Source: Solirubrobacteraceae bacterium
GTDB taxonomy: Bacteria; Actinomycetota; Thermoleophilia; Solirubrobacterales; Solirubrobacteraceae
Assembly (NCBI GenBank): GCA_031177685.1
Contig: JAPSGI010000008.1
Location: 124,001 to 188,000 of the forward strand
DNA length: 64,000 nucleotides
Direction of reading: 5' to 3'
Below are positions 22,817-24,236 of this stretch, piece after piece (position 1 is the stretch's first letter; each line of letters begins with the position of its first letter). The notes beneath the pieces were generated by a model. That model saw nothing but the letters and a program-made list of their open reading frames with translations, did no database searches and was not told the DNA's origin. A program made the translations under genes and the position numbers.

Positions 22817-23443
22817 CTAGCGCGTCTCCACGCCGTCCAGCAGGCGCCAGCTCGCCCGCAGGACCGACTCCGCCTCGGCCAGCAGCGCCTCGACGTCGGC
22901 CTCGTCCAGGCGCGGCTCGATCAGCGCGCGCTCGGCCTTGGCGTGCTCGTGATCGAGCTCGGCGTGCAGGTCGAAGTAGGCGGTCGCGGCCGGGTCGTCC
23001 ACGCCGTAGTGCGCGTGCAGACCCTCCAGCTTGGTCTGCGAGATCGCCGGCTGACCGGATTCGATCGCGTACAGCGCGACGAGGCTGGGGAGCAGGTCGC
23101 GCTCGCCGTCGCCGGCCCAGGCGCGGGCGCACTCCTCGGTCTGCGCCGAGACGGGCGCGGCGGGGTCGCCGCCGACGGCGCGGGCGAACTCGTCCCACAG
23201 CGCCACGTGCGAGGCCTCCTCGGCGGCGTGGGCCTCCAACGCGCGGCGCTCGTCACCTTCGGCGTGGCGTGCGGCGCCGGCGGCGGCCTCGGCCAGGGCG
23301 ACCACGGCGTGGCGGTACTCGCCCGCGTAGCGCGCGAGCTCGTCGGGGGACAGCGTCCCGGCCGTCCACCGCTGGTAGAAGGGGTGCTCGAGCACGTTCC
23401 AGCGAGCGCGCACTGACTCCAGCCGGCTCCAGAAGTCCTCCAC
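22817..23443 (-). CDS. CADD-like diiron/heme-oxygenase-fold protein (candidate p-aminobenzoate synthase)
   Basis: A 208-residue all-helical protein of the heme-oxygenase-like diiron (HDO) group, closest in pattern to Chlamydia CADD. It starts with GTG after a strong AGGAGGT site. Visible CADD landmarks: LEHPFYQRW (Y23, equal to CADD Tyr27), ELARYAGEY (Y39, CADD Tyr43), EEASHVALW (E75/E76, H79), YAIESGQP (E128) with K138 exactly ten residues later (CADD Glu142 and Lys152), and LHAELDHEH giving H160, D164, H167 in the H-x3-D-x2-H spacing. CADD makes p-aminobenzoate using its own Tyr and Lys, so the same role in folate synthesis is plausible here. A TenA/PqqC-like enzyme is the alternative. Confidence 0.82.
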   Translation of the reverse strand: MEDFWSRLESVRARWNVLEHPFYQRWTAGTLSPDELARYAGEYRHAVVALAEAAAGAARHAEGDERRALEAHAAEEASHVALWDEFARAVGGDPAAPVSAQTEECARAWAGDGERDLLPSLVALYAIESGQPAISQTKLEGLHAHYGVDDPAATAYFDLHAELDHEHAKAERALIEPRLDEADVEALLAEAESVLRASWRLLDGVETR

Positions 23444-23468: not shown

Positions 23469-24236
23469 ATGGGACGGCGATGCTACCGTGCCGCGCCCTT
23501 GCGACCGCCTGTCGAGATCCCGGCGCCCGCGTTCCCGCGCGACCTGCCGTGGGTGAACGTCGCGCCGCTGCGAATGGACAAGCAGGTGGGCCGCCCGGTG
23601 CTCGTCGAGTTCTGGGACGCCTGCCGCGCGAACTCCATGCGGACGCTGCCCTACGTGCGCGAGTGGCATCGCCGCTACGCCGACGCCGGCCTGCGCGTGA
23701 TCGGCGTTCACACGGCCGGTTTCCCGCCGTCCGAGGGCGAGGACGCCGTACGCCGCGCCGTGGCGCGGCTGGGCGTGGACTGGCCGGTCGTGGTGGACGT
23801 GGACGCCCAGGTGTGGCGGCTGTACGAGAACCGCGGCTGGCCGGCGCGCTACCTGTGGGACCGGCGCGGCGTGCTGTTCGACTACCACTACGGCGAGGGC
23901 GCCTACGACGAGACCGAACGCGCGATCCAGGAGCTGCTGGGAGTGGAGGGTGAGTTGGTGGAGCCCGTGCGTCCCGAGGACGCGCCGGGCGCCGAGCTGG
24001 TCGCGCAGAGCGCCGACCAGGAGGGCGCCTACTGCGGCCCGTACGCGGCCGGCGGCGTGTGGGCGGTGCTCGACGGGACGGGCACGGTCACGGCGAACGG
24101 GCGCGAGGTCGCCGTGGACGGACCGGGTGCGTACCCGCTGCTCGAGCACGAGCGCCACACCGAGGGCTTCCTGGAGCTCGTGCTGGGCGAGGGCGTGGCG
24201 TGCTGGGCCGTGCAGTTCACGCCGGGCCTGCGATGA
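23469..24236 (+). CDS. DipZ/TlpA-like thioredoxin-fold protein lacking CxxC
   Basis: About 255 residues. The core VLVEFW...MRTLPYVREWHRRYADAGLRVIGVHTAGF matches the thioredoxin-like domain of DipZ-type proteins, but the CxxC position reads RANS (residues 53-56), with a single Cys one place earlier (C52). YENRGWPARYLWDRRGVLFD and YHYGEGAYDETERAIQELL follow, then a C-terminal domain of about 85 residues. No signal peptide or membrane segment is obvious. Thiol-disulfide exchange of the usual kind is therefore unlikely; a peroxiredoxin-like or binding role is possible. The start is either ATG 23469 or TTG 23499. The 3' end overlaps the metallophosphoesterase gene by 20 bp, convergent. Confidence 0.75.
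   Translation: MGRRCYRAAPLRPPVEIPAPAFPRDLPWVNVAPLRMDKQVGRPVLVEFWDACRANSMRTLPYVREWHRRYADAGLRVIGVHTAGFPPSEGEDAVRRAVARLGVDWPVVVDVDAQVWRLYENRGWPARYLWDRRGVLFDYHYGEGAYDETERAIQELLGVEGELVEPVRPEDAPGAELVAQSADQEGAYCGPYAAGGVWAVLDGTGTVTANGREVAVDGPGAYPLLEHERHTEGFLELVLGEGVACWAVQFTPGLR

Follow-up and report, generated by a model that had tools for sequence, protein, structure and literature searches.

A p-aminobenzoate (pABA) synthase of the CADD/NePabS kind very probably takes the place of PabB, and so of the aminodeoxychorismate route, in the Solirubrobacteraceae bacterium from which the window, the analyzed stretch of 64,000 nucleotides, was taken. Judged from its relatives and conserved residues, the protein encoded by the window would very probably make pABA, and self-sacrifice is the highly probable way in which it would do so. 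These readings draw on homology, fold, the invariance of residues known to be essential, the absence of PabB and a genome-wide mutual exclusion between PabB and the CADD-type gene.

The first-pass annotation had recognized a CADD-type protein here, and its coordinates proved correct, with the gene on the minus strand (Table 1). The GTG start codon at 23443 is directly preceded by a GAGGAGG Shine-Dalgarno-like sequence. When the single sequence was searched with HMMER against the whole PDB, the sole strong matches, far beyond chance, were CADD (CT610 of Chlamydia trachomatis; PDB 1rcw, 8va9) and NePabS (NE1434 of Nitrosomonas europaea; PDB 9pj4) with E values of 1.4e-21 to 2.4e-20, and the depositors of these entries name them 4-aminobenzoate synthase. 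Internal stop codons had been flagged in several genomes carrying the gene, and in the three that were read (G005, G059, G041) the normal C-terminal stop was found.

Table 1. Position of the CADD-type gene, its predicted functional residues and the neighboring gene within the window.
Feature	Position	Strand	Evidence or remark
CADD-type heme-oxygenase-like dimetal enzyme, predicted self-sacrificing pABA synthase	22817..23443	-	208 aa, GTG start
Tyr23 codon, counterpart of sacrificial Tyr27 (CADD) / Tyr25 (NePabS)	23375..23377	-	alignment; 44/44
Tyr39 codon, counterpart of essential Tyr43 (CADD) / Tyr41 (NePabS)	23327..23329	-	alignment; 44/44; mutants in PMC11965152
Helix motif H72-x2-E75-E76-x2-H79, predicted first metal ligands E76 and H79 (E-x2-H)	23207..23230	-	44/44; spacing compared with UndA, BesC, CADD, NePabS
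Glu128 codon, predicted metal ligand (CADD Glu142)	23060..23062	-	alignment, invariance
Lys138 codon, counterpart of amino-donor Lys152 (CADD) / Lys159 (NePabS)	23030..23032	-	alignment; 43/43
H160-x3-D164-x2-H167, predicted metal ligands	22943..22966	-	alignment, invariance
Thioredoxin-fold protein without CxxC active site, conserved neighbor	23469..24236	+	19/50 related loci; weak AhpC-TSA/Redoxin match

PabB is missing from a genome that retains folate genes

The source genome (3.15 Mb, 96.6% complete) was searched with PF00425 for chorismate-binding enzymes and only two were found, TrpE and an isochorismate synthase. TrpE scored above the TrpE cut-off and lies in a hisIE-trpE-trpG-trpD arrangement, in which the names other than TrpE were read from the sequence. 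The isochorismate synthase scored above the cut-off of its model and adjoins an acetolactate synthase small-subunit-like gene, likewise named from its sequence. In a tree both enzymes grouped with TrpE and MenF, away from PabB. PabB was not found in the source genome by PF00425 search, model scores or tree, and a diverged PabB that had been overlooked was judged unlikely, since PF00425 gave TrpE and isochorismate synthase only and 47 of 52 carriers of the CADD-type gene agree with this picture.

FolP, FolB and FolK are present and their genes are grouped (folP-folB-folK), which indicates that folate is synthesized and pABA needed. It had been proposed earlier that the protein provides a PabABC-independent route. 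Indeed, no complete pabABC exists and PabB is absent, but TrpG and a standalone class-IV aminotransferase (L008) remain, so that the missing piece is strictly PabB. The aminotransferase, a candidate for a dedicated PabC, is ambiguous by model and its standalone type occurs in carriers and in PabBC-fusion genomes alike; one carrier, G226, has a single class-IV aminotransferase in total.

The CADD-type gene and PabB exclude each other across the order

In a sample of 158 genomes of the order, each at least 85% complete, 52 carried the CADD-type gene and 106 did not. Two or fewer chorismate enzymes were found in 47 of the 52 carriers compared with 15 of the 106 non-carriers (Fisher p = 3e-21, inflated by relatedness like the other p-values across genomes, hence the comparison within genera given below), and 91 of the 106 non-carriers had three or more. 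The PabBC fusion, which joins a chorismate domain to an aminotransferase, was present in 1 of 52 carriers versus 50 of 106 non-carriers (Fisher p = 4e-10). The third chorismate enzyme was also fetched from twelve genomes having neither the CADD-type gene nor PabBC. Ten of these enzymes grouped in a tree with PabAB (glutamine amidotransferase-PabB) proteins, the amidotransferase being visible at the start of nine, and the remaining two (G116, G076) fell with PabB types on long branches. The same pattern was obtained in another family of the class, where a second chorismate enzyme was detected in none of 9 carriers and in 16 of 24 non-carriers (p = 9e-4). Within mixed genera, non-carriers more often had the extra enzyme in seven out of seven (g12, g14, g17, g19, g24, g87, g88; sign test 0.016), and an eighth mixed genus, g23, showed no difference between carriers and non-carriers.

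A third chorismate match was observed in five of the 52 carriers, G150 (PabBC), G139 (PabAB fusion), G228, G232 and G152, and the 15 non-carriers without a third chorismate enzyme include some fragmented assemblies. The CADD-type gene, PabBC and PabAB constitute a three-way replacement of one step, with swaps that recur inside genera. The fusions of the sister genomes act at the same step of pABA supply in the same order, but are unrelated, chorismate-using enzymes that replace the window gene and rarely co-occur with it.

In one order the CADD-type gene was seen to alternate with PabBC and PabAB fusions (L072, L083, L084; L071, L086, L089-L090, L092-L097). Two chorismate matches in the f7 carriers G027 and G136 turned out to be a single gene reported as two pieces. 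Seven f7 genomes (G021, G033, G069, G103, G106, G109, G115) have a single chorismate enzyme and lack the CADD-type gene; these are either pABA auxotrophs, incomplete assemblies or users of yet another route.

Residues of the pABA synthases are invariant in the window clade

Residue positions were compared with CADD by HMMER alignment and their invariance was scored in 44 clade members, one of which is cut short, so that later positions were scored on 43. All correspondences proposed in the first-pass annotation aligned, with Y23, Y39, E128, K138, H160, D164 and H167 matching Y27, Y43, E142, K152, H174, D178 and H181 of CADD. Y23, Y39, Y43, H72, E75, E76, H79, W83 and E128 are invariant in 44 of 44 sequences, and K138, Y156, H160, D164 and H167 in 43 of 43. 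The full 3-His/3-carboxylate set by which the HDO superfamily is recognized (E76, H79, E128, H160, D164, H167) is therefore kept on a heme-oxygenase fold, and these residues would bind the metals.

Tyr45 and Trp99 of NePabS have been proposed as radical-transfer residues (PMC11965152), and their counterparts Y43 and W83 are both conserved in 44 of 44 clade members. The residue beside the bridging Glu is always Ile or Val in the clade, compared with Tyr141 in CADD and Phe148 in NePabS, and the position of CADD Tyr170 and NePabS Phe177 is always Tyr (Y156). The Phe148 and Phe177 positions determine the Fe/Fe or Mn/Fe preference in NePabS (PMC11965152); with Ile/Val at the one and an invariant Tyr at the other, the clade has a combination of its own at the two metal-preference positions, and because of the Ile/Val its radical path cannot equal that of CADD and NePabS. 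The F177Y variant of NePabS shifted to Mn/Fe (PMC11965152), and from Tyr156 a use of Mn/Fe, or of either metal, would be predicted for the window protein. Both Tyr and Phe beside the bridging Glu occur in working enzymes and influence metal preference (PMC11965152), and an aromatic residue at this place is probably no defining requirement for a pABA synthase.

The first metal helix differs from that of the characterized enzymes. In the stretch EEASHVALW, E75 and E76 stand 4 and 3 residues ahead of H79 as had been described, whereas the first Glu and His of CADD, NePabS and BesC are seven apart (E-x6-H) with a Gly/Pro-containing insertion between them. The E-x6-H pair of the two characterized pABA synthases is not present in the window protein, where AlphaFold2 predicts an unbroken helix from 63 to 89 that holds E76 and H79. 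The earlier suggestion that this spacing may affect the first metal ligand lost its force, since UndA displays E-x2-H too in the profile alignment and a survey of the superfamily found the first two ligands to be variably spaced among HDOs (PMC11363339). The metal ligands of AetD include D76 and H79 (PMC10654658). On sequence grounds, E76-x2-H79 is a different but precedented geometry, a variant rather than a defect or a reason for exclusion. E76 and H79 are the candidate site-1 ligands, and H72 and E75 are equally invariant.

When a family profile was searched against the whole PDB, CADD and NePabS were matched with E values of 3.5e-46 to 1.2e-45, and BesC (3e-7), UndA (9e-7) and PqqC (1e-4 to 2e-5) followed. 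An ordinary diiron HDO of specialized metabolism, similar to UndA, BesC or SznF and acting on a free small substrate, with the Tyr and Lys being structural, would likewise have complete 3-His/3-carboxylate ligands, could show the UndA-type E-x2-H spacing and would be consistent with a gene that has no folate gene adjacent to it. Such an enzyme is nevertheless improbable, as the profile separates CADD/NePabS (1e-46 to 1e-45) widely from BesC and UndA, and the invariant Tyr/Tyr/Lys trio is missing as a set from both of them: at the aligned positions both Tyr and the Lys are absent from BesC, and UndA keeps the Tyr without the Lys. Furthermore, mutual exclusion with PabB would be unexpected for a specialized HDO. 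UndA, a fatty-acid decarboxylase (PDB 4wwj/6p5q), thus shares the heme-oxygenase-like dimetal fold and the first ligand pair with the window protein, but it lacks a counterpart of Lys138, is far weaker in sequence similarity and catalyzes another reaction.

Relatives and degenerate homologues

In a tree, the window clade received 100/99 support and occupied a long branch of its own; CADD, NePabS and a cyanobacterial homologue fell outside it. A second actinobacterial group, which includes Acidimicrobiaceae, was also separate from it, and Tyr, Tyr and Lys are kept in both of these other groups. A phylum-wide sample gave 33 matches among 296 genomes, 28 of them outside the order in other actinobacterial families, and several of the matches from outside the order keep the Tyr/Tyr/Lys trio. 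On the sequences, the window clade is a diverged one, with a remodeled first-metal helix and Ile/Val beside the putative metal.

The order also contains four weaker homologues, L114-L117 (genomes G208, G217, G168 and G179), in which neither the sacrificial Tyr nor the Lys is left and several of the metal ligands are gone as well. All four genomes contain at least three chorismate enzymes, and G217 and G179 have the PabBC fusion. Intact residues thus go with a missing PabB and lost residues with extra chorismate enzymes (Fisher 3e-4, on small numbers).

These homologues bear on whether the protein itself is consumed. The known mechanism costs one protein copy per pABA molecule and the aromatic residue beside the metal is gone, which on physiological reasoning would fit pABA production without self-sacrifice, a free aromatic substrate, for instance, being converted over several turnovers. 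This route is very improbable, since the sacrificial Tyr and the Lys never vary within the clade, and both are gone from the degenerate homologues, as expected of substrates. Self-sacrifice remains the preferred reading.

L114-L117 are retained as long open frames, so that a new role is possible and these homologues may have acquired one. Two matches from family f22 (L111, L112) keep the metal ligands, but Leu, Phe and Leu occupy the positions of sacrificial Tyr, second Tyr and Lys, respectively; by these replacements they appear to form another HDO subfamily and are not to be called pABA synthases. The CADD-type protein L110 (G517) of another actinobacterial family shares the HxxEExxH helix motif of the window clade, which suggests either more than one origin of the short spacing or an origin before that of the clade.

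Family models and predicted fold

The CADD model TIGR04305 of NCBIfam matched the window protein with E 9e-34 and 117 bits, under its curated cut-off of 200. Because the gene scores below this cut-off, genomes of the group may be mis-scored as deficient in pABA synthesis. A structure was predicted with AlphaFold2 from the window protein and 36 relatives, resulting in a mean pLDDT of 97.7 for the window protein. In Foldseek the top match of this model was CADD (E 3e-10, TM 0.88, 29% identity), and TenA, UndA and PqqC ranked below it at 7e-6 or weaker.

A TenA/PqqC-type protein, thiaminase-like or a cofactor enzyme and devoid of a dimetal site, would share its fold with TenA and pass the Pfam cut-off of TENA_THI-4 (30.7 bits), but its probability is negligible, given that Haem_oxygenas_2 scores higher (44.9 bits, also above cut-off), the PqqC model reaches only E 0.055 against 9e-34 for the CADD model, the best TenA is at 7e-6 in Foldseek against 3e-10 for CADD and all six metal ligands are invariant. 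Membership of TenA/PqqC, which the first-pass annotation had named as the placement that would count against it, was rejected: model scores, family-profile search and fold ranking all favor CADD/NePabS.

A thioredoxin-fold protein is a conserved neighbor

No folate gene was found adjacent to the CADD-type gene, either at the window locus or at 50 related loci. A thioredoxin-fold gene diverges from it with 25 bases between the two, and the other recurrent neighbors are IspH (16 of 50 related loci) and a wax-ester synthase homologue (13 of 50). At the active-site place of the thioredoxin-fold protein, CxxC is absent from every readable sequence; in the window protein and the homologues in L009-L036 it is replaced, for example, by FWDACRANSMRTLPY or FLDYSQLNSVRTLPY. 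With the CxxC replaced, the neighbor probably does not act as an ordinary redox thioredoxin. By eye we take it to be DipZ-like. It is possible that this protein is a partner of the pABA synthase. A more far-reaching reading is rather unlikely. In it, the clade would be a separate lineage of self-sacrificing pABA synthases whose first metal site is built as in UndA and whose radical path is altered. Many environmental actinobacteria would obtain their pABA from this lineage alone, and the thioredoxin-fold protein without redox cysteines would be its dedicated partner, serving for example the loading of metals, reduction or the removal of spent enzyme.

Discussion

For the self-sacrificing pABA synthase favored here, the following course of reaction can be proposed from the residues shared with CADD and NePabS. 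The reduced dimetal site (E76, H79, E128, H160, D164, H167) would react with O2, and the oxidizing equivalent would pass along the aromatic residues W83, Y43 and probably Y156 to Tyr23. The side chain of Tyr23 would then be cut off the backbone and oxidized to the benzoate, with Lys138 as the presumed nitrogen donor. The pABA produced would feed FolP, and in this way folate synthesis.

The self-sacrificing chemistry itself is already known from Chlamydia and Nitrosomonas, and experimental evidence for it was found for these two enzymes only. The likeness to CADD extends beyond the catalytic trio to counterparts of Tyr47, Tyr170 and the Trp that follows the first His ligand, and the six metal ligands follow in the same order. 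The two proteins differ in their first ligand pair, which is E-x2-H in an unbroken helix in the one and E-x6-H in the other, in the Ile/Val that the window clade has where CADD has Tyr141, and in genomic context, the window gene not being clustered with folate genes. Moreover, the host of CADD is an obligate intracellular pathogen, whereas the hosts of the window clade are environmental actinobacteria. NePabS, which complements an E. coli pabABC deletion (PMC11965152), has counterparts of all five residues Tyr25, Tyr41, Tyr45, Trp99 and Lys159 in the window protein, and its gene lies outside any folate cluster, as in the window clade. It differs by its E-x6-H spacing and by Phe148/Phe177, which are Ile or Val/Tyr in the clade.

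In the literature searched, which left most subscription journals outside its reach, no case from actinobacteria or Thermoleophilia was found, and the clade, its spread as a PabB replacement and the altered metal helix were undescribed. This substitute for PabB looks widespread across a little-studied actinobacterial order, where repeated exchanges with PabB fusions of two kinds appear to have taken place. Its apparent wide use makes it testable how all the folate that a normal cell requires can be supplied by an enzyme that is destroyed once per product. The natural variants, namely those in ligand spacing, those without an aromatic residue at the metal and the homologues without Tyr and Lys, could help to tell features essential to the chemistry from those that only tune it.

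Two copies of the CADD-type gene were observed in some assemblies (L014/L020, L023/L027, G260), which may be real duplicates or mixed bins.
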